A stretch of DNA of 64,000 nucleotides from Actinoalloteichus hymeniacidonis. GTDB lineage: Bacteria; Actinomycetota; Actinomycetes; Mycobacteriales; Pseudonocardiaceae. A program made the translations under genes and the position numbers. Below, one piece after another: positions 313 to 60,732 of the stretch. Below the pieces are notes generated by a model. That model saw only the letters and a program-made list of their open reading frames with translations. It searched no databases and was not told where the DNA came from. The stretch lies in assembly GCF_014203365.1 (NCBI RefSeq), contig NZ_JACHIS010000001.1, forward strand, positions 2,666,001 to 2,730,000. Direction: 5' to 3'. The stretch's first letter is position 1, and every line of letters starts with the position of its first letter.

Positions 313-492
313 ATGACGTTCGGTTCGCCGTTCGGTCGACGACGTCGACGGAGGGCGTGCGGGAAGGGTGGCGCTCGCCGCGTCGCCGCCCGCCGTTCCC
401 GGTCGCTGCATTACCTGGGTGGGAAGACGACGAGGGGAAGTGGCGGCGCCGATGACGAGCGACTCCGTTTCGGACGGTCGGAGCAGAGCTGA
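313..492 (+). CDS. Possible small Arg-rich upstream ORF overlapping the PKS1 start
   Basis: This is a 59-codon frame with a good ribosome site (AGGAG at 302-306, 6 bases before the ATG). It ends at TGA 490-492, 41 bases inside PKS1 in another frame. The product would start MTFGSPFG and contains a run of six Arg residues; I recognise no family. The ribosome site is better placed than that of PKS1, so it could be a leader that couples translation into PKS1. The Arg run may simply reflect GC-rich sequence read in a non-coding frame. I regard it as doubtful. Confidence 0.2.
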
Positions 493-3400
493 GCGGTTCG
501 CCTCGGCCGTGGCGATCGTGGGCGCGGCCTGTCGCGTTGCGGCAGGCGCACGCGAGATCGACGACCGACCCGGCGGCTCCTCGGGACCCGTCGAGCCTGG
601 GCCGTTCGACGATCCGGCATGGGAACTGGCCGACGCGGCGCTCGTCGCCGACGCGCCCCACGGTGCGCCGATGGAGCCGACGGTCGATGCCCTGTGCCGG
701 GGGGCACTGGCGAATGCGGGGATCACCTTCGGCGCGGATGCCCCACCCCGGGTGGGTGTGGTCCTCGCCCTCCCGGACTCCGCGACCCCAGCCGTTCTCG
801 GCCTCGCCGACCGTCTCGCGGTTGCTCTCGACCTACCCATGACGCACGTCCGGATCCGCACCAGCCCGACCGCGCTCGACGCCGTGCACGCGGGCGCACG
901 ATGGGTGGCGGACGCCTCTGTCGACATCGTGATCGCGGGAGGCGTGTCCTTGCGGGCGACGGCCGCTCCCACCCCGGAGACCGCAGCCGCGGAGGGAGTG
1001 CCGGGCACCTCGGTGGTCGTCCTCACGACGCGGCTTCGCGCGGAGGCCGACGGTGCCATAGTGCGCGGACTCCTTCTCGACGAGACCGCAGGCGACGCCG
1101 TCGAACCGGGCCCCGCCGCCACCGAGGCGCCCGACTCCGCCGAGGCGGAGCTGATCTGCGACTTCGAGGATGATCTCGCCGTCGAATTCGTCGGCGTCAC
1201 CCGGCTGCTTCGGGTGCTGGCGGTACTGCGGGATCGCGAGGTCGGTCGTCCCGCCGACCATGACCCGGTGAACGACCCGGTGGGACCGTCGACTTCCGAC
1301 GAATCCGCCCCGGCCGCCTTCCTGTTCCCCGCCGCCGCTGGAGCCGCCGAGCACGGCCCCTACCGTGTCGCGGCCGCACCTCCCGCCGCCGACCGCATCG
1401 ACGCCTCGGCGGACGGCGCCGCCGAGGCCGACGCGCCGGTGGGACTCCTGCTGTCGGCTCCGGACGATGCGAGCCTGCGTGCGGAGGCCCGCAGACTCGC
1501 CGCCCACCTCGCGGCCCGACCTGGGCTTGCGCCCGCCGACCTCGCATACACGCTCGGCACGGCACGTCCGCTCCACCACAGGCGGGCCGCGGTCTTCGGT
1601 GCGAACCCGGGCGAGTTGGGGGAGCGGTTGACCGCCATGGCCGCAGGCCGACCGGCTACCGGAGTGCTCGGCGCACGCGACGCCACGCCCAGGGCCGCAG
1701 CCTTCGTCTTCCCGGGACAGGGCTCGCAGTGGGCGGGTATGGCGCGCGGACTCCTCGACGCGGCCCCCGTCTTCTACCGGCACATGGCCGAGTTCGACGC
1801 CGCCTTCGCCGAGTTCGCGGACTGGTCCCTGCTCGCGCTGCTGCGGGAGGAGCCGGGACAGCCGCCGCTACAGCAACCCGACGTCGTCCAGCCCGCCCTG
1901 CTGGCCGTGATGGTCTCGCTGTCCCGACTCTGGCAGTCGGTCGGGGTGCAACCCACCGCCGTCGTGGGACACAGCCTGGGTGAGGTCGCTGCCGCCCAGG
2001 CCGTCGACGCCCTGTCGGTGACCGACGCGGCCCGCGTGGCGGTGCTGTGGAGTCGACTGCAGGCGGAACTGTCGGGACACGGCGAGATGGCCTCGGTGTC
2101 GCTGCCCCTGGAACGGTTGCAGGCCCGGCTCGCGCCCTGGGGTGAGCGGATCGACATCGCGGGTGTCAACGGTCCCGCATCGATCGTGGTCTCCGGTGAC
2201 GCCGATGCGGTGCGCGAACTCTCCGCCGCGCTGGTCGCCGACGGCATCCGATCCCAGCTGATCCCCGTCGGGCTCGCCGCGCACTCGCGCCAGGTCGACC
2301 TCCTGCACGATCGGCTGCTGCGTGATCTGGCGCCGATCACCCCGCGCAGCTCGACCGTCCCGTTCTACTCCGCCGTCCACGACCGACTGATCGACACCGC
2401 TGAGCTGACGGCCGACTACTGGGCACGCAACCTGCGCAGCAGGGTCCTCTTCGACCCGGCCGTCCGCACCCTGCTCGGCGACGGCGCCGACGCGCTGTTG
2501 GAGATGAGCCCGCATCCGGTGCTCACCGTCGCCATGCGTCAGACCGTCGAGGACCTCGGTGCCGACGCCGTGGTGTTGGAGACACTGCGCCGAGGAGAGG
2601 GCGGGCCGGATCGATTCCGCCGCGCCGTCGTGGAGGCACGGGCGACCGGTGTCGACGTCGACACCTCGGCGGTGTACGCGGATTCGGGTGCTCGGCGGGT
2701 CACCCTGCCGTCCCCGGTCGACCTGGCGTGGCTGGGCCGCGACGGAGCTGCGGGCGCCGAGTCCGATGCGGTCGACGCAGCCGTGGCGGCGACGCCGGTC
2801 TCCGCACACGTGGCCCTCGCGGAGCGCCTCGCGATCCTGGACGACGTCGAGCGGCGTCGATTCGTGCGGCGGCTGGTGCGAACGGAGACCGCCGTCGTGC
2901 TCGCCGCAGCGGGCGGCGACGCGGTCGACGGCGCGACCACCTTCCTCGGCCTCGGACTCGACTCGCTGGCCGCCGTGCGTCTACGGGACGCGCTGAACAG
3001 CGCGACCGGCCTCGATCTGCCCGTCACCACCGCCTTCGACCATCCGACCCCTGACGCGCTCGCCGCGCACGTGCTCGCCGCACTGCTCGGAGCGTCCTCG
3101 GGCGACCGGGCGACACCGCCCGTGACGCCCTCGGCGCCCGACGACCCGATCGCCGTCGTCGCCATGACCTGTCGGGCACCCGGGGGCGCGAATTCGCCGG
3201 AGGAGCTGTGGCGTCTCGTCGCGGAGGGCCGCGACGCGATCTCCGCGTTCCCCACCGACCGAGGTTGGGACCTGACCAGCCTCTACCATCCCGATCCGAC
3301 GCATCCCGGCACCACCTACACGACCTCCGGCGGCTTCCTCGACGGCGTCGACCGCTTCGACGCCGGACTGTTCGGCATCAGCCCCCGCGAGGCCATGGCG

Positions 3401-6400
3401 ATGGAGCCGCAGCAGCGGGTGCTGTTGGAGGCCTCGTGGGAGCTCTTCGAGCGGGCGGGTCTGGACCCGCGTTCGCTGCGGGGCACCGACGTAGGAGTCT
3501 TCCTCGGCGCCATCGCCCAGGACTACGCCCCACGGCTGCACCACGCGCCTGCCGGTCTCGAGGGCTACCTCATGACCGGCAACACCGCCAGCGTGGTCTC
3601 CGGGCGTATCGCCTACACCTTCGGCCTGGAGGGGCCTGCGATCACGGTCGACACCGCCTGCTCCTCGTCGATCGTGGCCGTGCACCTCGCCTGCCAGTCG
3701 CTGCGTCAGGGCGAGAGCTCCCTCGCCGTCGCGGGCGGCGTCGCGGTGCTCTCCCACCCCGGCATGTTCGTCGAGTTCAGCAGGCAACGGGCGTTGTCAC
3801 CCGACGGACGGTGCAAGCCGTTCGCCGCCGCCGCCGACGGCACCGCCTGGGCCGAGGGCGCGGGCGTCGTGCTGCTGGAGCGGCTGGCCGACGCACGGCG
3901 CAACGGCCATCGTGTCCTCGGAGTCATCAAGGGCAGCGCCATCAACCAGGACGGCGCCTCAAACGGACTCGCCGCGCCCAGCGGCCCCGCCCAGCGACGG
4001 GTGATCCGCCAGGCACTGGCCAACGCGCGAGTGGGCGCTGCCGAGGTCGACGTGGTCGAGGCACACGGCACCGGGACGACTCTGGGCGACCCGATCGAGG
4101 CCAACGCGCTGGCCGCCGAGTACGGACCGCACCGACCGGCCGACCGACCGCTGCTGCTGGGCTCGGTCAAGTCCAACATCGGTCACGCTCAGGCCGCCGC
4201 AGGCATCCTGGGTCTGATCAAGACGGTGCTGGCCATGGAACACGGCATCCTGCCCCACACCCTGCACGTCGACGAGCCGACACCGCACGTGGACTGGTCC
4301 TCGGCGGGACTGTCGCTGGTGACCGCGACCAGGGAGTGGCCGACGACCGACGGGCCCCGCCGTGCCGCCGTGTCCGCCTTCGGCATCAGCGGCACCAACG
4401 CCCACCTCATCCTCGAGCAGCCGCCCTCGGCGCCGGAGCAGGCCGACGCCGCGCCCGCGACCACATCCGACGAGCCGATCGCCCTGCCCTGGCTGCTGTC
4501 CGGTCGGACACCCGCCGCGCTCCGGGAACAGGGCAGGCGACTGCTGGCCCGGGTGGTGGACGACCCCGACCTGCGTCCGGCCGACGCCGCGTTCTCGCTG
4601 GTCACGACCAGATCATTGTTGGAACAGCGGGCCGTCGTGGTCGCGGAGGACTTCTCGGCACTGCGCCGAGGCCTGCGGAGCCTCGTCGACGACGAGGCCG
4701 CGCCTGCGCTTCTTCGAGGCGAGGCGGGAGCGTCGCCTCGACGGGTGGCGTTCGTGTTCCCCGGCCAGGGCTCGCAATGGGTGGGTATGGCGGTCGACCT
4801 GCTTGCCGCCTCGCCCGCCTTCGCGACGCGGATGGCGGAGTGCGAGGCCGCGCTGGCTCCCCACGTCGATTGGTCGTTGTTCGAGGTGCTCTCGGACGAG
4901 ACCGCCCTGAACCGGGTGGACGTGGTGCAGCCGGTCCTCTGGGCGGTGATGGTGTCGCTGGCCGAGGTGTGGCGGGCTCATGGGGTTTCTCCGGAGGCCG
5001 TGGTCGGCCATTCGCAGGGGGAGATCGCTGCGGCCTGCGTGATCGGCGCACTCACCGTCGCCGACGCGGCTCGGGTGGTAGCACTGCGCGCCTCGGCGCT
5101 GGTGCGGCTGGCGGGCACGGGCGGAATGGTCTCGGTCTCGGCAAACCGTGAGACGGTCATGGCCGCGTTGTCGCAGTGGGCGGACCGGCTCTCCGTGGCG
5201 GCGGTCAACGGGCCGAACTCGACGGTCGTCTCCGGTGAGTCCGAGGCACTGGACGAGTTCCTCGCCGACTGCGAGGTACGTGGACTGCGGGCCCGGCGGA
5301 TCGCGGTGGACTACGCCTCGCACTCCGCGCGAGTGGAGTCGCTGCGCGCGGAGTTGATCGAGTCGCTGGCGGAGCTGAACCCACGGTCGGTGTCCATACC
5401 GTTCGTCTCCAGCGTCACGGGCGAGGTGATGGACACGTCCGAGCTGGACGGCGAGTACTGGTATCGCAGTCTGCGCGCCACAGTGGAGTTCCAGCGAGCC
5501 GTCGAGACTGTCGCGGCCGAGGGAGTCGACGCGTTCATCGAGGTCAGTGCTCACCCGGTGCTCGCCGTCGGCCTCCAGGAGACGCTGGAGGGTTGTGCCG
5601 AGGACGCAGTCGTGCTGTCGACGCTGCGCCGTGACGAGGCCGACCGCCGGCGACTGCTCGGTGCCCTGGGCGAGGCGCACGTGCGGGGCGTGGCCGTCGA
5701 CTGGACCTCGGCTTTCGCCGGGTCGAGACCACAGCGCGTCGACCTTCCGACGTATCCCTTCCAACGACAGCGGTACTGGTTGCGCGAACAGCACGGTGCG
5801 GCGGTCGATCACGACGCGGCAGGCCTCGATCCGCGGCCGCACCCCCTGCGGGGCTCCGCCCTCGTCCTGGCGGATTCGGACGGCGTGGTCTTCACCGGCA
5901 GGGTCTCGGCCTCCTCCCATCCGGTACTGGCGGGACATCGGGCGCACGGTGCCGAACTCCTTCCCGGCAGCGCCGTTCTCGACCTCGTCTGCTGGGCGGG
6001 AGAGGCCCTCGGGCTGGAGCAGGTCGTCGAGCTGGTGTTGGAGAACCCTCTCGTCCTGCCCGTCGGCGGCGCTGCCCGGTGGCAGCTCACGTTGGCGGCC
6101 CCCGAGGCGTCGGGGACCCGAACGCTGATCCTGCACAGCCGCGCCGAGGGCGACGACGACGGCTGGACGACCCATGCCACCGGTCTGCTCGGGTCCGCCG
6201 ACGCCCCGCCCGCCGTCTCCGTGTCGCTCCCGCCCGCTGACGAGGCGGCCGAGATCTCCGTGCTGCCACCGGCGGAGGAGGAGGGAATGGCGGCGTGGCG
6301 GTGTCTGCGCACGGTGCGCAGACATGGCGCCGACCTCGTCGTCGACGTGGCGCTGCCCGCAGACCTGCGGGACGAGGAGACGTTCCTGCTTCATCCCGGT

Positions 6401-9400
6401 CTGCTCGACGCCGTCCTGCTCGCGTGGACCGCGAGCACCGGGCGGCAGGCGCGACCGTTCGCCTTCACCGACGTGACGTGCTACGCCCCGATGCCCGAGG
6501 AGCTGCGCGTGCACGTGCGGCCGTCGGCACCGGATGTGGTGTCGCTGCATCTCACCGACCTCGACGGCGAGCTGATCGCCGTCGTCGGCTCGGCGACTCT
6601 GCGGCCGGTCCCGGCCACCGACCGGCACCCCCGGTCCGCCGGATCGCTCCTTCGGATGCAGTGGACCCAGGTCGATGTGCCGTCTCAGACCGGGGACGAC
6701 GAGCGGTGGGCGGTGCTCGGCTCGGCGGACGAGGCGACGGCCGCACTGTGTGACTCGGGGCTGATCGTGTCGGTCCTCCCCGGACTGGCCGAGCTCGGCG
6801 CGTCGCTGTCGCCGGAGGCGCCGGCGCCGACCACCGTGGTGCTGATCGCCCAACGGAGCCCGCGCGACGGACTCGCGCTTCCCGACGCGGCTCGTGATGC
6901 CGTGCACCGCACGATCGAACTGATCAGGACCTGGCTGGCCGACGACCGGTGGGCGGCGACGACCCTGGCGGTGCTCACCGGGCGGGCGGTCGCCGTCGGC
7001 TCCGACGACGATGTGCCGGACCTCGTGCACGCCCCGTTGTGGGGTCTACTGCGGACGGTGCAATCGGAGAATCCCGACCGGGTACTGCTCGTGGACGTCG
7101 ACGACGCACCGGACTCGCACCGCCTGCTGCGTGCCGCGATCGCCGAGGGCAGGCCGCAGACGGCGATCCGCGAGGGTCGCCTCGTCGCGCCGACCCTTGC
7201 CGCAGCCGCGACGGCGTCCATGCCCGCGCGGCCCGTGCTCTCGCCCGAGGGCACGGTCCTCATCACCGGGGCGGGTGGCGGCCTGGCCAGGATCGTCGCC
7301 CGGCACCTGGTGACCGAGCATGGCGCCCGTCGGCTCCTCTTGATCGGCCGTCGCGGCCCGACCGCGCCCGGCATCGCCGAGCTCGTCGCCGAACTCGCCG
7401 AGCATGGCGCCGACGTCGCCGTCGCCGCCTGTGACGTCGCGGACCGGGAGCGGCTCGTCGAGGTGCTCGACTCCGTCCCCGCGACGCATCCCCTCACCTC
7501 GGTGATCCACTGCGCGGGAGTCCTGGACAACGCGTTGGTGCCCTCGCTGACGGCCGACCAGGTCGACCGGGTGCTCCGCCCGAAGATCTACGGCGCCTGG
7601 CATCTGCACGAGCTGACGCGAGACGCCGACTTGTCGACGTTCGTCCTCTTCTCCTCGGTGGCCGGGCTGATCGGCGGCGGTGGGCAGGGCAACTACGCCG
7701 CCGCGAACGCCTTCCTGGACGCACTGGCCGCCCACCGACAGGCCGCCGGATTGCCCGGTACCTCGCTGGCCTGGGGACTGTGGGAGGACCGCGCGGGCAT
7801 GGCCGGTCGCCTGGGCGACGTGCACGTCGCCCGCGCCGGGCTGCGGGGCCTGGCCGCGCTGCCGGAGGCGGAGGGGCTGCGCCTCCTCGATGCGGCGCTG
7901 GCCGTCGGCGAGCCGCTGCTCGCCCCGGTGTGCCTCGACAGGACGGAGCTGCGGTCCTCCGACGCGGCGGCCGCGCTGCCTGCGTTGTTCCAGGGGATCG
8001 AGACGCCGTCCCAACGGCGACCATCCCGCATTAGGAACACAGCCGACGACGCGCCGCCGTTGCTGCGACGCCTGCGCGGCCTGCCCGCCGCCGAGGCCGA
8101 GCCGGTGTTGCTCGATCTGGTTCGCAGCCGGGTGGCCGCTGAACTGGGGCACGCCTCCGCCGCCGAGATCTCCGTCGGCCGCGCCTTCAGCGATCTCGGC
8201 TTCGACTCGCTGACCTCCGTCAACCTTCGAAACCGCCTCGCAGCGGACACCGGGCTCCGCCTGCCCGTGACGGTCGCCTTCGACCACCCCACCGTGCAGG
8301 CGCTCACCGATCGGCTGTGGGCCGAGCTGGGCGCGCTGCTCGGGTCGACGGGTGCGGAACCTGCCTCGGCCGGTCTCACCGACGGGTCGGGTGCGACGTC
8401 GTCTACACCGCAGAGTCTGGCCGACGAGCCCATCGCCATCGTCGGCATGTCCTGCAGGCTGCCCGGTGGAGTGACCTCGCCGGAGGCGCTCTGGGAGTTG
8501 CTCGCGGCCGAGATCGATGCGATCGGGGACTTCCCCGGCGATCGAGGCTGGCAGCGTGAGGGACGGTACGACCCCGAGCGGTTGCACCCGGACAGTCCCT
8601 ACTCGCGGGTCGGCGGCTTCCTCTATGACGCGGGCGACTTCGACGCGGAGTTCTTCGGAATCTCCCCCCGCGAGGCCTCGGCGATGGATCCGCAGCAGCG
8701 TCTGCTGCTGGAGACGGCGTGGGAGTCCTGGGAACGTGCGGGCATCCCCGCGGAGACGCTGCAGGGCAGTGGGACGGGTGTCTTCGTCGGGACCAACGGA
8801 AGCGACTACGGGGCGCTGCTCGCCGAGTCGCCCGAGGCGGTCGGGCACGTCATGACCGGTGGGGCGGCGAGCGTCGCCTCGGGGCGCATCGCGTACTCCT
8901 TCGGTCTCGAGGGCCCCGCGGTGACGGTGGACACGGCCTGCTCGGCCTCGCTGGTGGCGCTGCATCTGGCCGTCCAGTCGCTGCGCCAGGGCGAATGCTC
9001 TCTCGCCCTGGCCGGCGGGGTCACGGTCATGACCACGCCCCGACTCTTCGGCGAGTTCGCCCGCCAGGGCGGATTCGCCTCGGATGGTCGGTGTAAGTCC
9101 TTCGCGGAGGGTGCGGACGGCACCGGTTTCTCCGAGGGCGTCGGGCTGGTGGTGTTGGAGCGGTTGTCGGATGCGGTGGCGAACGGTCGTCGTGTTCTGG
9201 CGGTTCTGAGGGGTTCTGCGGTGAATCAGGATGGTGCGTCGAATGGGTTGACGGCGCCGAATGGTCCGTCGCAGCAGCGGGTGATTCGGCAGGCGTTGGC
9301 GAATGCGGGTTTGTCGGCCGGGGATGTCGATGTGGTGGAGGCGCATGGCACTGGGACTCGGTTGGGTGATCCGATCGAGGCGCAGGCGTTGTTGGCGACC

Positions 9401-12400
9401 TATGGCCGGGATCGTGAGCCGGAGAATCCGGTGTTCCTGGGTTCGGTGAAGTCGAACATCGGGCACACCCAGGCCGCTGCGGGTGTCGCGGGTGTGATCA
9501 AGATGGTGTTGGCGTTGGAGCACGGGGTGCTGCCGTCGACCCTGCATGTGGACGAGCCCTCGTCTCAGGTGGATTGGTCGTCGGGTGCGGTGGAGTTGCT
9601 CGCCGAGTCGCGGTCGTGGCCGGAGGTGGGTCGTCCGCGTCGGGCTGCGGTGTCGTCGTTCGGGATCAGTGGGACCAATGCCCACGTCATCCTCGAACAG
9701 GCCCCACCATCTGCCTCGCCGAGCGGATCGAACGACACGGAGCAGCCGTTCGACGGGACACCCGAGGCACCGTCCTCGGTGCCGCCGTGGGTGATCTCAG
9801 GCGGATCGACGCAGGCGCTGCGCGCCCAGGCCGCCCGACTCCTCGAACGACTCACGGCGGATTCCGAGTGGTCTCCCGTCGAGGTGGCCGTCGCTCTGGC
9901 CAGGTCACGTGCGCGGCTGGACCACCGCGCGGTGGTACTCGGCTCCGACCGAAGCGAACTCCTCGTGGGCCTCGCCGCGGTCGCCGATGATCGTGACGCC
10001 GCCGGCGTCGTGCGCGGAACCGCCCAGCAGGCGGGACGGGTCGCGATGGTCTTCACCGGGCAGGGCTCCCAACGCGCCGGGATGGGGCGCGAGCTCTATG
10101 AGCACCACCCGCTGTTCGCCGCCGCCTTCGACGAGGTGTGCGCGGAGCTGGATCCACTGCTCGGGTTCTCTCTTCGGGACGCCGTCTTCGCGACCGATCC
10201 CGCGCAGACGCCCGGCAGCCTGACGATCGACGACACCGGGCTCGCCCAACCGGGATTGTTCGCGGTGGAGGTGGCTCTCGTCCGTCTGCTGGAGTCCTTC
10301 GGCATCACCCCGGCCGTCGTCGCGGGGCACTCGCTGGGCGAGGTCACGGCGGCGCACATCGCCGGACTGTGGTCGCTGCCGCAGGCCTGTCGTGTGGTGG
10401 CGGCCCGGTCCAGCATGATGCAGCAGCTGCCGGAGGGCGGCGCGATGGCCTCCGTCGCGGCCACCGAGGACGAGGTGCGTATCGGGCTGCTCGAACTCGA
10501 TATGACACCGGACGACCACGGCTGCGACATCGAGATCGCCACCGAAGTCGGCATCGCGGCCGCCAACGGCCCGTCCTCGACCGTGATCTCCGGCGAGACC
10601 GACGCGGTGGAGCGGGTGCTGCGCTGGTGGCAGGACCGAGGCCGTCGAGTGCGTCGACTCTCCGTGTCCCACGCGTTCCACTCACCGCTGATCGATCCGA
10701 TGCTCGACGACTACCGCCTCGCACTGGCCGATGTGGAGTTCGGCGACGCCGCGTTACCCGTGGTGTCGACGGTGACGGGCGCGATCCTCAGCCGTTCGGA
10801 CGCGGCGGACCCGGAGTACTGGGTGCGGCAGGTACGCGAACCGGTCCGTTACGTCGACGCGGTGCGCACCCTGGAAGAACAGGGCGTGACGACCGTACTG
10901 GAGATCGGTCCCGGATCGGTGCTGACCGCGCTCACCCGCGACGCGCTGGATCGCACGGACCCGACCGGTTCGGTCGCCGCGCGCCCGGTGACGTGCCTGT
11001 CGATGCTGCGCTCCGACCGAGGCGAGCGAGCGGCCCTGCTGAGCGGCATCGCCGCATCCCTCGCGCACGGCGTGCCGGTGGACCTCTCCCCACTCCTGCC
11101 CACCCGCGTCGCCCCCACCGAGCTGCCGACCTACGCCTTCCAACGCGAGCGGTACTGGCTGGACGTCGGACGGAAGCCGACCGACGCGGCGGGACTCGGG
11201 CTCGTCGCGTCGGGCCACCCGGTGCTGGGTGCGCGCGTCGACCTGCCCGACTCCGGCGCCGTCGTCTTCACCGGCCGCCTGTCCACGGCGGCGCTGCCCT
11301 GGACAGCCGCCCACCGGGTCGGAACCGCCGCCGTGTTCCCCGGAACGGGACTCGTGGATCTCGTCTTCGCCGCCGCGGTCGACCTACGGAATCCATTGAT
11401 CGACGAGCTCACACTGCACTCCCCGGTGATCGTGCCCGCTGAGGGCGGTCTCGCCGTCCGAGTCCGGCTCGACCGACCCGCCGATGAGCAGCCGGTCCCG
11501 AGCGCGGACGAGACGTCGTCCCGGATCGGTGCACCCGCGCGGGACAGCGAACGCGTGGTGACCGTCTACACCCGCCCCGAAGAAGACCCCACCGCCGAGT
11601 GGACCAGCCACGCCACCGGACATCTGATCGAGGCGGAGTCCGCCGCACCCGCCGACGAAACCGGTCGGGCGACCTGGCCGCCGCCTGCGGCCGTGCCGGT
11701 GTCCACCGACGGCCTCTACGCGGCCTTCGAGACGGCAGGCCTCGGGTACGGACCGGTCTTCCAGGGCCTGCGCGCGGCCTGGATCTCCGCCGATACCGTG
11801 TTCGCCGAGATCGAGCTGCCCGAGCAGGCATGGGTGGAGGCGTCCGCCTACTGCCTCCACCCGGCGCTGTTCGACGCGGCGCTGCACGCCCTAGGCCTCA
11901 CCGACGCCGTCGGGGTCCTGCCGTCCGGCGAGGCCGACGGCGTGCGCCTGCCGTTCTCCTGGGCAGGCGTTCGAATCCACGCCACCGGTGCCACCCGACT
12001 GCGGGTCACGCTGCGCACCATCGAGGACGGCGACGTCGAGGTCCGGGCGGTCGATCCCGAGGGCACGCCCGTCGTCACCGTCGACCGGCTGACCCTGCGA
12101 CGCGCGGCGTCCGGCGATCGACCCGCCGCTGCCTTCGATGTCCGCGAGGCGATGTTCGACCTGGACTGGGTGCCGACGTCCCTCATGGACACACCGACCG
12201 AACCCGGCTGGTGGGCGCTGCTGGGCTCCACCGACGCAGGGCTGACCGGCGGGCTCGTCGCGGCGGGACTGTCCGTCGAGTCCGGAGCGGACCTGGCCGA
12301 CCTGAGTTCGCGGATCGCCGCAGGCGGCCCGGCACCGAGTGTGCTCGTCGTCCCCGGCGGTGCACTCGCACCCACCGGGACCGCACCGGAGCCGGTCGAC

Positions 12401-15145
12401 GGCGTGCAGCACGCGGTCGAACGGATGCTGGACGTGCTGCAGAGCTGGTTGGCCGAGGAACACCTGGCGGCTACGCACCTGCTCGTGGTGACACGAGGAG
12501 CCGTCGCGACCGGCGAGACCGACGACGTCCCCGATCTGGCGGGCGCCGCAGTGTGGGGGCTGTTGCGCACGGCACAGACCGAGAACCCCGGCCGGATCAC
12601 CCTGTTGGACCTCGACCCGGCGAGCAGCGAGCCCGATTCCCTCGCCCGCCTGAGCGAGGTTTCCAGGCTGATCGGGGGCGCGGACCCGCAGTACGCGGTT
12701 CGAGCCGGCCGGGTGCTGACTCCGAGGATGGCTCCGCTGCGGCTGCTCCAGTCGGTCGAGGATCGCAGGCAGTCCCCGGGCGAGCCGGTCGCCGACGACC
12801 GGCCCGCCTCCGACGACGTGATCGTGACGGGCGGCCGGTGGCGGGTGGGCGTGGTGACCCCCGGATCGGTGGCGGGCGTGGGCCTGCTGCCTGCGGCGGA
12901 AACGCCGACGCGCGACACGGCCCTCGCACCGGGCGAGGTGCGGATCGCCGTCGCCGCCGCCGGACTGAACTTCCGGGACGCCATGGCTGCGCTGGGCATG
13001 TACCCGGGCGCGGTCGAGATCGGCGGCGAGGGTGCCGGGACGGTCGTGGAGATCGGCGCCGACGTCACCGACGTGGCACCCGGAGACCAGGTCATGGGCG
13101 TACTACCCGGTGCCTTCGCCGCCTCGGTGGTGGTGGACCGACGCATGGTGACGCCGTTGCCCGCCGGGTGGACCGCCGTCGAGGGGGCGGCGGTGCCCAG
13201 TGTCTTCCTGACGGCCCTGCACGGCCTCGCCGGACTGGCGGACCTGTCCGCCGGTCAGTCGGTGCTGATCCACGCCGCAGCAGGCGGTGTGGGCGCGGCG
13301 GCGGTGCAGGTGGCCAGGTCCAGGGGCGCGACGGTGTTCGCCACCGCATCACCCGGTAAGCACCAGGTACTGCGCGACTGGGGCATCCCCGACGAGCGGA
13401 TCTCGTCCTCGCGCGACCTGGACTTCGAGTCCAGGGTGCTCGCCGCCACCGGCGGGCGGGGCGTCGACGTGGTGTTGAACGCCCTGGCAGGCCCCTTCGT
13501 CGACGCGTCGCTGCGGGTGACCGCGCCCGGCGGCGTGTTCCTGGAGATGGGCAAGACCGACCTGCGGGACCCCTCGGCCGTGGCCGAGGAGCACCCCGGC
13601 CTCGCCTATCGCCCCTTCGATGTCTCGGCACTGCACCCCAACCTCGTCGCCGCGCTGCTCACCGAGTTGCGAGGACTCTTCGACCGTCGGGAGCTCACGC
13701 CGCCGCCGATCACCGAGTACCCGCTGCGACATCTGCGACCCGCCCTGCGAGCACTGGCGGGAGCCGAGTTGATCGGCAAGGCCGTCCTGCGGATGCCTCG
13801 GCCGGTGCCGTCCAACGGCACCGTGCTGATCACCGGCGGTACCGACGGCTTGGGCCGGATCGTGGCCCGACACCTGGTCACCCGGCACGGTGTCGCGGCG
13901 TTGGTGCTGCTGTCTCGTCGCGGCGGGGACACGCCGGGCATCGCGGACCTCGTCGCCGAACTCGAGGCGGCAGGCGCCCGAGTGACCATCCATGCCGGCG
14001 ATGTCGCCGATCCCAGGGTCGTCTCGGAGGTGATCGACGCGATCCCGCCGGAGTTCCCGCTCGCAGGGGTCGTCCACGCCGCAGGTGTACTGGCCGACGG
14101 GGTCCTGTCCTCGATCGACGCCGATCGAGTGGCCCGAGTGCTCGCGCCCAAGGTCGCGGGCGCCTGGAACCTGCATCGGGCCACGGAGCACCTCGGCCTG
14201 TCGCTGTTCCTGACGTTCTCCTCGGTTGCGGGCGTCTGGGGTGCGGCGGGCCAGGGGGCCTACGCCGCGGGCAACGCATTCCTGGACGCGCTGATCTCCC
14301 GACGGCGGGCCCGAGGGCTCGCCGGAACCTCGTTGGCCTGGGGGCCGTGGACGACGGAGGCGGGCATGACCGCAGGCCTCGCCGCGACGGATCAACACCG
14401 GTTGCATCGTTGGGGCCTGCGGGCGTTGGCACCGCAGGACGCCCTGGAAATCCTGGACACGGCGTTCACGACCCGACCGGTGCTCGCCGTCGCGGCCGGG
14501 GTGGACCTCACCGCACTCGGGCGCCGCCCGGCCGAGGACGTCCCCGCCGTCCTGCGCGGACTGGTGCGCACCCCGGACCTTGGCGCGCCGCCGCGATCCA
14601 CGCAACCCGTCGAGGCCGTCCCGCCGCTGCGTTGGGCCACGGAGATCGCCGCCCTGCCCAGGGGCGAGCGGCACCGCCGGGTCACCACGCTCGTCAGGGA
14701 GGCGGCGGCCGCCGTCCTCGGCCACGCCAGAGCGGATCGGGTGGGGGAGACACAGGCGTTCGGCGAACTGGGATTCGACTCCCTCACCGCCGTCGAACTG
14801 CGCAACCGCCTGCGTGCCGTCACCGGCGTGACCCTGTCGGCGACGTCGGTGTTCGACCACCCCAACCCGGCGGAACTGGCAGAGCGGATCCTCGGCGGGC
14901 TCGCGCTCCCCGAGGACGATCCGACCCGAGACGTCCTGCGCGGTATCGACGACCTGGAGGCGGGGCTCGCCCTGCTCGCCTCCGACGACGATCACGCGGA
15001 GATCACCGCCCGACTCCAGAACATCCTCTGGCGGTTGGCGGACGCACACAGCGCCGCCGAGCCGTCCTCGCCGGAGCAGCTGACGGAGGCGAGCCCCGAC
15101 GAGCTGTTCGATTTCATCGACCGCGAGTTCGGCGAGCTGACCTGA
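452..15145 (+). CDS. Type I modular PKS: loading module, modules 1 and 2 (PKS1)
   Basis: This 4,897-residue protein selects the starter and performs the first two extensions. Approximate domain order: decayed KS 20-260; loading AT 415-715; ACP 808-880; KS1 897-1323; AT1 1431-1730; atypical DH1 1795-2053; KR1 2083-2500; ACP1 2553-2627; KS2 2658-3085; AT2 3196-3500; DH2 3588-3886; ER2 4124-4450; KR2 4456-4680; ACP2 4746-4815; C-terminal docking segment 4822-4897. Both extension KSs keep Cys in DTAC, HGTGT and NIGH. I chose ATG 452 because the KS-like homology begins soon after it and a GAGGGGAAG stretch (432-440) precedes it. GTG 440 and ATG 368 are in frame but have no convincing ribosome site. 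It is the first gene of the PKS1-PKS2-PKS3 operon, 78 nt before PKS2. The chain it hands on should be a tetraketide-stage precursor lacking module 3 units. Confidence 0.93.
509..3100 (+). other. Loading module: KS remnant - AT - ACP
   Basis: The AT (about 1694-2600) has GHSLGE and an AAHS motif where extender ATs have YASH or HAFH. The Arg that binds the extender carboxylate (ALRAS in AT1) is replaced by Trp (VLWSR). That exchange is known from loading ATs that take monocarboxylic acyl-CoAs. The ACP (about 2872-3090) has an intact GLDSL. The segment in front of the AT (509-1228) is a shrunken, inactive KS relative rather than a KSQ. I infer a non-carboxylated starter such as acetyl, propionyl or a branched acyl group; which one cannot be read from motifs. 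Confidence 0.8.
3140..8340 (+). other. Module 1: KS-AT(methylmalonyl)-DH*-KR-ACP
   Basis: AT1 has GHSQGE and VDYASHS, which predicts methylmalonyl-CoA. DH1 (about 5835-6610) keeps the HxxxGxxxxP motif and an Asp in HPGLLDA. It has lost the YGP motif before the second half, and its middle aligns poorly, so it is probably inactive. KR1 keeps catalytic Ser, Tyr (GNYAAAN) and Lys, but its nucleotide loop reads TGAGGGLA instead of TGGTGxLG and its B-type motif reads LDN. The likely outcome is a beta-hydroxyl with an alpha-methyl. ACP1 is normal (GFDSL). Confidence 0.75.
8423..14910 (+). other. Module 2: KS-AT(malonyl)-DH-ER-KR-ACP, full reduction
   Basis: AT2 has GHSLGE and SHAFHS (malonyl-CoA). 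DH2 keeps His, YGP (GYGPVFQGL) and the DAALH Asp, although the HxxxG glycine is shifted (HRVGT). ER2 (about 12821-13800) has the nucleotide loop [15 protein letters not shown], the LGMYP Tyr, and the Lys and Asp of SPGKH and SRDLD. KR2 has TGGTDGLG plus Ser, Tyr and Asn. The KS active site reads DTACSAS. The predicted result is a saturated two-carbon unit without a methyl. Confidence 0.85.
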
Positions 15146-57000: not shown

Positions 57001-60000
57001 GACTGGTCGGCGTGCTTCGCGGGCCGAGGAGCCTGCCGGGTCGATCTGCCGACCTATGTCTTCCAACACGAGCGATTCTGGCTCGGCCCGCCGACCGCGA
57101 CCTCGCTCGACACGAGGGGCCTGGGACTCACCATGGCGGACCACCCGGTGCTGGGCGCCGCCGTGGACCTGCCCGATGTCGGAGGAAGCCTGCTCACCGG
57201 CAGGCTGTCGGTGCCGACACACCCGTGGCTCGGCGATCATGTGGTCGCGGGCTCGGTGATCTACCCGGGAACCGGGTTCGTCGATCTGGTGCTGCGGGCG
57301 GGCGCCGAGGTCGGCTGCCATCGTATCGAGGAGCTCGTCCTGCACACGCCGCTCGTGCTGTCGGGTGACGACGCCGTCGCGGTGCAGGTCGCGGTCGGCG
57401 CGGCGGACGAGCAGGGCCGTCGCTCCGTCGCCGTCTACGCCCGTGACGAGCAGGACGTGCACCCCGAGGCCTGGCGGCGGCATGCGGGCGGGGTCCTGGC
57501 TCCGGACACCCCGATCGCGGGCGACGAGACACTCGCCTCGTGGCCGCCTGCGGCCGCGACGGCGGTGTCGACCGACGGTTTCTACGATCGGATGGTCGGC
57601 GAGGCCGAGCTGTACTACGGCCCGGTCTTCCAGGGATTGCGGGGCATGTGGCGCCGCGATGACGCGGTGTTCGCCGAGGTCGAACTGCCAGCCGACGCCG
57701 TGGGCGAGGCCGAGCGCTTCACCGTGCACCCGGCCCTGTTCGACGCGGCCCTGCATGCGGTCTGGCTGCTGGGCGCCGGTGACACTGCGGACTCGGATCA
57801 GGAGGATGCCTCGGCGGAGGGAGCACGGGATCACACGCGGCTGCCGTTCTCCTGGAGCGGTGTGTGGCTGGGCGCGGTGGGAGCCAGCCGTCTCCGGGTG
57901 CGGTTGCGCTCGACAGGCGGCGGCGTCTCCATCCTCGTGGCCGACGAGACGGGTTCTCCGGTGGCCTCGGTGGCGGAGCTGGTGCTTCGTCCGCTCAACG
58001 GAGCACCACGCGACGCCACGGTCGATGCGCACCGGGATTCGCTGTTCCGGCTCGACTGGACGAGGGTGGAGGCCGCCCCGGGGGACCCGCGACCGGTCGT
58101 CCTCACCGGACACACCGCCGAGCCGCACTGGTGGGTCGATCGGTTCGGTGCCGAGCTGGACACTGTCGAGTCGGTGACGACGCTACCCGCTCCCATACCC
58201 GCTGCGGTGCTGCTGCCGTGGTCGTCCCAATCGGAGGTCGACGACCTCGGCGACCTTCCCGCAGATCTCGCGACCCGAGTGCACGACGGGGTGGCCGACG
58301 CACTGGACACGGTGCGGACATGGCTCACCGAGGAGCGCTTCGGCGCTGCCACCCTGGTGGTCACGACTCGGGGCGCCGTCGCGGCCCGCCCGAAGGAGGA
58401 CATCACCGATCTCGCTGCGGCCACGCTGTGGGGACTGCTGCGCTCGGTGCAGGCGGAGCACCCGGCCCGCATCGCGCTGCTCGACATCGACGAGCACGCG
58501 ACGCCTGTCGCCCTCCGGTCGGCGCTGGCGACGCTCGCGGGCCACCTCGAGCCGTGCCTGGCGGTACGCGGTGGCGAGGTTCTGGCATCCCGGCTGGCGA
58601 GGGTCGCACACTCGGAACTCGCCGCCGCTCGGGACACGGCCGCCGATGAGAGCGGCCCGGGCGACCACTCCGAAGGCGGTGGTGCGGTGGGCGACGCGGG
58701 AACGACCGACGCGGCGGCCGACGGGACGGTGCTGGTCACCGGCGGGACCGGCGCACTGGGTGCCCGGCTGGCCCGCCACCTGGTCGTCGAGCACGGCGTG
58801 CGACACCTCCTGCTCACCGGCAGAAGGGGACCGGACGCGCCGGGGGCCGCCGAGCTGAGCGCCGAGCTGACCGGACTCGGGGCGAGCGTGACGATCCGGG
58901 CGTGCGACGTCGCCGACCCGGTGGAGGTGCGCGGACTGCTGGCCGAGGTGCCCACCGCACACCCACTGCGGGGTGTCGTGCACACCGCGGGCGTGCTCGA
59001 TGACGGCGTCGCCACGGCTCTCACTCCCGAACGGCTCGGAGGTGTGCTGCGGCCCAAGGTGGACGGAGCATGGAACCTGCACCGGCTCACCCGAGATCAG
59101 GACCTTCGTATCTTCGTGCTGTTCTCCGCCGCCGCAGGGGTCATGGGGACACCGGGACAGGCCGCCTACGCGGCGGCGAACTCCTTCCTGGACGCCCTCG
59201 CCGCCCACCGCCGGGCTCGCGGGCTGCCCGGTCGGTCGCTCGCCTGGGGGCTGTGGGCGCAGCCGGACGGCCTCGCGGCCGACCTGCACGGCAGTGATCA
59301 AGCGCGACTGACGGGCGGCGGGATCAAAGCGCTGTCCACCGACCATGCGCTGGCCCTGTTCGATCGATGTCTCCGCGCCGAGGACGCCGTGCTGATACCG
59401 ATGCACCTCGACAGCCGGACGCTGGCGAGCTGGGCGGGCCACGACGTGCCCGCGATCCTGCGCGGCCTGGTTCGTTCCGGGCCGCGGCCTGCGGCCCGCG
59501 GCAGGCAGCAGTCGGCGGGGGAGACGACGGCCAGGCTGACCGAGCTATCGATCGAGGACCGTCGCGTCGAGCTGCTGCGGATCGTCCGCACCGTCACGGC
59601 GAGGGTGCTCGGGCACAGCGGCCCGGACGTGATTCCCGAGGACGGGTCCTTCGCCGAACTCGGGGTCGGCTCGCTCACCGCAGTGGAACTGCGCAACGCC
59701 CTCGCCGAGCTGTCGGGGCTGGTCCTACCTGCCACGCTGGTGTTCGACGTGCCGACGGTGGCTGCGGTGGTCGAGGACCTGCTACGCAGACTGGCGGAGC
59801 ACGACGGGGAGGCGACTCCCGCGACGGCGAGATCCGGAGCCGATCCCGAGCCACCCGGCGAGCAGTCCGGGTCGCTCGGCGGCATCACCGCCCTCTACCA
59901 CCAGGCATTCTCCGCAGGCCGCATCGAGGACGGCAGGCTGCTGCTCGCGGCCGTGGCGAATCTCCGACCGACGTTCAGCTCCCCGGCAGAGCTCGTATCC

Positions 60001-60732
60001 GCGCCCGCCGCGGTGCGACTGAGCAGTGGGCCTCGGCCGTCGCCGCTGATCTGCTTCCCGTCGTTCAGCATGTTGGGCGGGGTCCACGAGTTCAGCCGTT
60101 TCGCGGAGTCCTTCCGAGGCGACCGGGATGTCTGGGCACTGCCCGCACCGGGCTTCGCCCCGCAGGAGACGCTTCCCGCGACGGTGCACGCTCTCGTCGA
60201 ACTGCACATGGAGTCGGTGCGGCGATACGTGCAGGAAGGACCGTTCGTCCTGGTCGGACGCTCCGGCGGCGGCCTCATCGCCAACGCCGTTGCCGCTCGT
60301 CTGGAGGAGGTCGGACTGCCCGCAGCCGCCGTGGTCCTCCTGGACACCTCGCCCGCCAGATCCGAGCAGGCGGAGGCGATCGTGCCCGTGCTGTCCGAGA
60401 AGCTGTTGGAGAAGGAGACCGAGTTCGTCGCCATCACCGGCGGCGCTGTCAACGACGTGCGCCTCACCGCCATGGCGGGGTACTCCGCCTTGATCGCGGA
60501 CTGCCCGCCGATCGCGACCGCCGCGCCGACACTGCTCGTCCGGGCGGTCGAGTTCCCCGGAGACATCGGCGACGCCGAGGTCGCGGACGCGGACTGGCAG
60601 AGCTGGTGGCCTCATGCCGAGGAGGTCGTCGAGGTGGCGGCGGACCACTTCAGCATGATGGAGGATCGGGCCGCCTCGACGGCCGAAGCCGTACGAGCGT
60701 GGCTGGACTCCTCCTCGACCACGAGGCGGTAG
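45034..60732 (+). CDS. Type I modular PKS: modules 8, 9, 10 and thioesterase (PKS4)
   Basis: This 5,232-residue protein performs the last three extensions and chain release. Approximate order: docking coil 1-34; KS8 35-458; AT8 558-862; KR8 1197-1430; ACP8 1479-1552; KS9 1569-1995; AT9 2101-2398; KR9 2735-2975; ACP9 3019-3092; KS10 3114-3540; AT10 3665-3970; DH10 4036-4325; KR10 4564-4810; ACP10 4847-4920; TE 4949-5232. Possible starts are GTG 45013 and ATG 45028, 45034 and 45040. I prefer 45034 because GGAG (45024-45027) is six bases away. ATG 45040 would align exactly with the start of the docking coils of PKS2 and PKS3 and is almost equally likely. It has its own promoter candidate upstream, and a strong terminator directly follows the stop. 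Confidence 0.94.
45136..49690 (+). other. Module 8: KS-AT(methylmalonyl)-KR-ACP
   Basis: AT8 has GHSQGE and VDYASHS (methylmalonyl). KR8 has [17 protein letters not shown] and YAPGN. Like KR4 it combines LDD with Pro two after the Tyr, a B2-like pattern. ACP8 has GFDSL. The predicted outcome is a hydroxyl with an alpha-methyl. Confidence 0.85.
49738..54310 (+). other. Module 9: KS-AT(malonyl)-KR-ACP
   Basis: AT9 has GHSVGE with SHAFHS, predicting malonyl; Val after GHS is less common than Leu or Ile. KR9 has TGGTGSLG, a VDD version of the B-type motif, FSSVSA, YAAAN and Lys. KS9 reads NLGH. ACP9 has GFDSL, followed by the less usual EFRERL. The predicted outcome is a hydroxyl without a methyl. 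Confidence 0.83.
54373..59795 (+). other. Module 10: KS-AT(methylmalonyl)-DH-KR-ACP with deviations
   Basis: AT10 has GHSQGE and YASHS (methylmalonyl), but its oxyanion-loop motif reads GHGSQ instead of GQGSQ. DH10 is intact ([23 protein letters not shown]). KR10 has [11 protein letters not shown], Lys and YAAAN, but FSAAAG replaces FSSxAG, so the usual catalytic Ser is Ala. ACP10 reads GVGSL instead of GxDSL; the phosphopantetheine Ser is kept. If KR10 works, the product is an alpha-methyl alkene at C2-C3; if not, a 3-ketone. Confidence 0.8.
59870..60729 (+). other. Thioesterase domain, chain release
   Basis: This C-terminal alpha/beta-hydrolase domain of about 285 residues is typical of macrolactone-forming PKS thioesterases. 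The nucleophile elbow is GRSGGG (Ser codon 60261-60263), with Arg where GHSxG is usual. An Asp follows strand 6 (LLDTSP), and the His is in ADHFSMMED near the end. The triad is therefore complete. It likely releases the chain as a lactone with one of the predicted hydroxyls; hydrolysis to the acid cannot be excluded. Confidence 0.88.

Follow-up and report, generated by a model that had tools for sequence, protein, structure and literature searches.

A Trp-type loading acyltransferase behind a putative decayed ketosynthase in a modular polyketide synthase of Actinoalloteichus hymeniacidonis

Which kind of starter unit primes the modular polyketide synthase (PKS) encoded in the 64,000-nucleotide stretch of Actinoalloteichus hymeniacidonis DNA that was analysed here (the window), and what is the protein segment in front of its loading acyltransferase (AT)? 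The loading module in PKS1 consists of an N-terminal domain, a ketosynthase (KS)-to-AT linker, an AT and an acyl carrier protein (ACP), and is followed by the KS of module 1 (KS1). The likely start of PKS1 is an ATG with the purine-rich sequence GAGGGGAAG just 5' of it, and an 18-letter stretch of the protein was also read in the ortholog. The features are, in window positions:

452..15145, + strand, PKS1: putative reduced KS, AT (Trp), ACP, module 1, module 2 (likely ATG 452; open frame from 368, GTG)
494..1351, + strand, putative decayed ketosynthase, about 285 residues, PKS1 residues 15-300 (hhalign, PF00109, column map)
1445..1630, + strand, KS-to-AT linker (PF22621, E=4.9e-9; PF22336, E=3.1e-6, on a similar stretch)
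1703..2656, + strand, loading AT domain (PF00698, E=1.1e-86)
1967..1981, + strand, GHSLG active-site serine motif
2048..2050, + strand, Trp codon replacing the carboxylate-binding Arg
2276..2287, + strand, AAHS specificity motif (in LAAHS)
2915..3073, + strand, loading ACP (LGLDSL)
3143..3895, + strand, KS of module 1, N-terminal domain (DTACSS)

The sequence-only reading had proposed that Trp replaces the carboxylate-binding Arg in the loading AT, and this was borne out: following the active site, the loading AT has ARVAVLWSR (from 2030) and AT1 has ARVVALRAS (from 5069), with the Trp as residue 561 of the frame that opens at 368, and a motif scan found Arg at this column in all ten extension ATs of the window. 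The second motif is indeed AAHS, unlike the YASH of AT1 and the HAFH of module 2, and the range given for the domain (1694-2600) was about right. Both Trp and AAHS are kept in the ortholog of genome G341, the AT of which is 93% identical, making a sequencing fault unlikely.

The same exchange had been said to occur in loading ATs of the erythromycin and avermectin type. The erythromycin (DEBS) loading AT also has Trp at the Arg position. The DEBS loading module takes a propionyl-CoA starter (PMC6164871). An erythromycin-like loading AT was sought in seven ATs from family matches, all of which have Arg and an intact KS. For the avermectin type the statement holds: when solved structures were searched by sequence, the avermectin loading AT, known from a crystal structure (4rl1, AVES1), aligned with 345 query residues (E=1.2e-91), Trp on Trp, with LWSR and LAAHS in the window opposite LWSQ and VPAHS. 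This structure ranked second, and sixth with a longer query, the top match being the Arg-bearing tylactone synthase AT both times. The V of the IPV motif is kept in the window, and by our own count on the chain, allowing for a presumed purification tag, we take it to be V222 of the avermectin enzyme. Changes at V222 narrow the substrate range of the avermectin loading AT (PMC7242659). The two ATs further share GHSLGE and an xAHS motif; they differ in PAHS versus AAHS, and for avermectin a loading module of the form LAT-ACP has been described (PMC4581413).

To place the window AT among its relatives, it was searched in 386 and 394 genomes (near relatives, among the matches listed), and an alignment of seven Trp-type ATs was searched in 295, 220 and 35 genomes (again among the matches listed). 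Once rows that agreed throughout their first 80 aligned residues had been removed, the 205 loci among the matches listed gave 229 distinct ATs, with Arg at the relevant column in 207, Trp in 21 and Cys in one. Each of the 21 Trp types among these matches has LAAH or VAAH (LAAHS in 19, LAAHG and VAAHS in one each), while the Arg types listed include 133 with YASHS and 24 with HAFHS. xAAH also occurs in some of the Arg types listed (11 YAAHT, one IAAHS and one FAAHS), so the motif is not exclusive to Trp types. Nine of the 21 Trp ATs are close orthologs within one genus; by our own count about 11 lineages are represented among the matches listed.

A quick tree of 85 rows (all Trp rows and the Cys row, 4rl1, the 18 best-scoring odd Arg types, 38 random YASH and six random HAFH types) put the 22 Trp rows (the 21 and 4rl1) and the Cys row in one group with an SH-aLRT support of 98. 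An earlier tree of 144 rows contained a like group (support 92) that additionally held the Arg rows L074 and L083; these two combine Arg with LAVHS, stand behind an intact KS and fall outside the Trp group in the 85-row tree. By its Trp, its xAHS motif and its grouping with 4rl1 in the quick tree, the window AT would belong to the Trp-type class, and it has no functional KS upstream and an ACP and KS1 downstream. That its starter would be a monocarboxylic acyl group, as had been suggested, is supported by this homology. Motif swaps alone fail to switch AT specificity, and there are polyene ATs with GAAH (PMC12843615), so Trp with AAHS is to be read as a marker and not as proof.

Two other members of the census deserve mention. 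The Cys row (L028, + strand frame from base 7546) is a loading-type AT with IAAHS and is sister to the avermectin loading AT. At L065 loading is assigned to a separate protein of about 915 residues, AT(Trp)-DH-ACP, whose loading module thus includes a dehydratase (Pfam, L065); eight loci of genus g10 are related to it (L067, L068, L071, L073, L077, L078, L079 and L084).

Trp-type and Arg-type ATs differ in what precedes them. Judged by motif and among the matches listed, an intact KS stands upstream in frame in 172 of the 194 Arg types that could be determined and in none of the 21 Trp types. Thirteen further Arg types could not be judged, and of the 22 without an intact KS, 17 nevertheless have KS sequence in the stretch that was read. 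In an HMM scan upstream of the Trp types, KS pieces were found, among the matches listed, in the window, G341 and L155 alone, with single KS matches below 0 bits for L160, L127 and L067. According to a proposal of 2026, upstream domains become redundant once an AT has been reprogrammed, and this drives their loss (PMC12843615); the difference between the two types of AT fits that proposal.

For the window itself, the sequence-only reading had noted the absence of a KSQ. This was right with regard to a catalytic KSQ, but what is probably a decayed KS in the same protein had been overlooked. By sequence, the first 332 residues gave no match to the PDB at E<=5, NCBIfam gave none on the N-terminal domain, and the single Pfam family at E<=10 was PF00109 (ketoacyl-synt, E=0.22, residues 140-179). 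When the window and G341 pair was aligned by hhalign with a profile of 85 KSs, residues 80-173 fell on KS columns 97-209 with a score of 41.9 (window alone 40.3, G341 alone 33.8). The highest control scores were 24.1 for 200 column shuffles, 23.9 for 110 real non-KS segments (a random draw from 129, each paired with its best G341 match) and 23.3 for the same segments reversed. Plain MAFFT gives the same register in the first half of the domain, and in one alignment the window fills 270 of 430 KS columns, the register being less sure after about column 230. At the catalytic Cys both the window and G341 have a gap (L155 has Ala), the His of HGTGT is Val and the His of NIGH is a gap; with Cys-His-His lost, the domain would be a KS remnant and not a KSQ.

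Several other tests of the KS homology of these N-terminal 300 residues gave weak results. The HMM local score was modest, being matched by seven of 5000 shuffles and 11 of 719 overlapping reversed segments for the window and by 62 of 5000 shuffles for G341; a profile of ten KSs gave by hhalign a mere 26-column match in the wrong place, and the free-end alignment was uninformative. In the end-to-end alignment with cheap gaps, run at two gap settings, 0 and 1 of 1000 shuffles scored at least as high as the window, as did 9 and 52 of the 138 real decoys (3 and 38 when reversed). For G341 the numbers were 8 and 57 of the 1000 shuffles, and 93 and 128 of the real decoys (94 and 126 when reversed). 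Since the window is not separated from the decoys, this alignment gives no support to KS homology. Structure models of the domain were poor (pLDDT 36 from the single sequence and 39 with its own KSs aligned). In a search of 390 genomes of the family the domain matched in three, namely its own genome, G341 and G008, the last with a short and weak match (61 residues, E=3.2e-4). We found no earlier description of such a KS remnant in the open-access literature.

The domain evolves fast, yet not freely. Between the window's genome and G341, identity is 77% over the first 305 residues (297 aligned positions), compared with 93% for the AT and 98% for KS1. The pN/pS between the orthologs is 0.48 (bootstrap 0.36-0.68) for the putative decayed KS, 0.14 for the AT, 0.05 for KS1 and 0.82 (0.46-1.57, near neutral) for the AT-ACP linker. 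None of 1000 bootstraps reached a pN/pS of 1 for the decayed KS, indicating significant purifying selection; the remnant is relaxed yet constrained, which leaves room for a structural role.

A second case came from the search of 295 genomes, which gave 29 new loci and, among the matches listed, five Trp types in the 29 distinct ATs read. L137, L155 and L158 are one place in genome G958, where an AT with LWSK and LAAHS is preceded by a plainer reduced KS. The latter was picked up by the HMM in six collinear pieces, of which the fifth is not significant by itself (61.6 bits including the linker, 54.7 excluding it), with an hhalign score of 133.7 and a PF00109 match of E=1.5e-16 (L158), and it has Ala at the Cys column. 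An ACP-like stretch and then an intact KS1, both read by eye, follow downstream. The module thus resembles that of the window in having a reduced KS, a Trp-type AT, an ACP and KS1, and differs in that it comes from another family, is less decayed and falls in a different sub-group of the tree. The window and L155/L158 have 65 missing KS columns in common, compared with 32 on average when one domain is shifted circularly (321 shifts), and the nine shifts within 9 columns alone reach 65; for G341 the number is 56 compared with a mean of 27 and is reached by 13 of the 321 shifts. At the co-missing sites the gap fractions in 85 ordinary KSs are 0 to 0.08. The two reduced domains are 24% identical, and 27% and 37% identical on average to ordinary KSs. 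Although the deletions coincide, each sequence is at least as similar to ordinary KSs as to the other, so a common reduction is not shown. A search for the G958 reduced KS and AT in 61 relatives returned, besides itself, two matches, to the linker and AT part alone.

How are these data best read? That the N-terminal 300 residues are unrelated to KS and the likeness due to chance or composition would agree with the 26-column match, the HMM scores that some shuffles and reversed segments attain, and a cheap-gap global alignment no better than real decoys. However, the scores with the 85-KS profile lie above all controls, on which ground chance resemblance was rejected; moreover, PF00109 was the sole Pfam match, the domain precedes a true KS-AT linker and the counterpart at L158 is plain, so that we consider this reading very improbable. 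Priming of the KSQ type, through decarboxylation of malonyl or methylmalonyl units, would agree with a KS-derived domain standing before the AT, an arrangement also present in the KSQ loading modules of ossamycin (OssA1, PMC6490886) and ebelactone (EbeA, PMC5082578). A KSQ decarboxylates, whereas the domain in the window is reduced and has no catalytic residues: its active site has neither Gln nor Cys, HGTGT and NIGH were not found and the AT has no Arg. As neither a full-length KS with Gln or Ser nor an Arg-bearing AT is present, a KSQ module was rejected, and its likelihood is close to nil.

The domain may also be a reduced KS that was retained because the loading module needs it, for instance as a dimer platform or cap, with the reduction being adaptive. 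The significant purifying selection, the intact frame and the absence of nearly the same KS stretches in the distant L155/L158 all speak for this, but the pN/pS is about ten times that of KS1, the likeness between the two reduced domains does not exceed that of either to ordinary KSs, and about nine of the eleven Trp-type lineages (own grouping, among the matches listed) are without a reduced KS; on balance we find it doubtful. With regard to the AT, a dicarboxylic or unusual starter, or an inactive AT with the starter supplied in trans, seems improbable. Many residues set AT specificity (PMC12843615), which leaves such a reading some room, but the Trp removes the usual salt-bridge partner and the AT groups with 4rl1. 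Inactivity was rejected in view of the intact GHSLG and the strong constraint (pN/pS 0.14).

We therefore consider it likely, judging from sequence comparison, that the window encodes a priming module of the avermectin-loading-AT kind, in which the AT takes a monocarboxylic acyl-CoA and the KS in front of it decayed after the AT had switched. The AT would bind an acyl-CoA without a free carboxylate, Trp standing where Arg would pair with the carboxylate of a malonyl-type substrate, and the acyl group would pass via the active serine of the AT to the adjacent ACP and on to KS1. Decarboxylation would not be needed, which would leave the N-terminal KS without chemistry. It would then have been stripped of its three catalytic residues, of several stretches in its interior and of a large part of its C-terminal end, and would survive as a weakly constrained remnant, perhaps a structural cap. 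The AT switch would have come first and the KS loss after, with the KS of the window caught part-way. It is also conceivable, although we lean against it, that Trp-type loading modules have an N-terminal domain of their own kind, a non-catalytic reduced KS, which would be ancestral at least as a KS, lost in most lineages and retained as a small structural domain in a few.

The Trp exchange alone is ordinary for its class and the KS remnant is the new element. The eurocidin and rimocidin loading ATs resemble our reading in that a switch from extender to starter acyl-CoA took place in a module with upstream domains; they differ in the GAAH motif of eurocidin and in the position of the polyene loading ATs within the extender clade, and no decayed KS is described in the Results and Discussion of that paper (PMC12843615). 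KS loss in AT-primed lines was argued there from the switch in AT specificity, and the paper states that an extant AT-starting eurocidin cluster was looked for in vain (PMC12843615). If the reduced KS is indeed a distinct domain of Trp-type loading modules, it would directly record the origin of KS-free AT-ACP priming, with the substrate switch first and KS decay after. Two Trp-AT loading modules with a KS at different stages of decay would give natural intermediates to the AT-switch model, and could indicate to engineers where such modules may be truncated at the N-terminus.

As to the class of starter, homology gives good support for a monocarboxylic acyl-CoA. No acyl-CoA ligase or carboxylase was found among the nine cluster proteins scanned (a set that covers the small ORFs in part), and because none of them looks like a starter-supply enzyme the starter is most likely an acyl-CoA of primary metabolism, i.e. 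acetyl-, propionyl-, isobutyryl- or 2-methylbutyryl-CoA. The genome consists of one contig of 6,306,207 bases. Of the six PKS genes four lie within the window. The other two precede it, at -35998 to -19706 and at -19709 to -3738 in window coordinates, and the second of these ends in an apparent docking segment and not in a thioesterase. PKS4 carries the terminal thioesterase (PF00975) at 59902-60729, the active serine of which lies within GRSGGG. The docking segment makes it probable that in the assembly line the loading module is followed by 16 extension modules and finally by the PKS4 thioesterase, in a docking order that we infer. The surroundings encode a LuxR-type regulator, a hexose 2,3-dehydratase, a glycosyltransferase, a GFO/IDH oxidoreductase, a methyltransferase and two P450s. 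A. hymeniacidonis has several type I PKS clusters, for instance one for a 34-membered macrocyclic lactone (cluster 15), and its cluster 19, for a glycosylated polyene macrolide, is common to Saccharomonospora xinjiangensis (PMC5168871). From its content, the window cluster may correspond to cluster 19.

Some further peculiarities were seen in and around the cluster. The AT of the first module of PKS2 (window 17243) is odd in combining GHSFGE with QAFH, and the first module of the upstream PKS at -19709 to -3738 (L056) has an odd extension AT with IASH. In the orthologous cluster of G341 (L050-L053) the PKS frames show breaks and runs of unknown letters, which are probably assembly faults or masking. 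Just upstream, at -82267 to -47236 relative to the window (L118-L120), lies another, distinct PKS cluster, in which the loading KS is of the KSQ type (DTGQSS) and a GHSSGG motif resembles that of a thioesterase.
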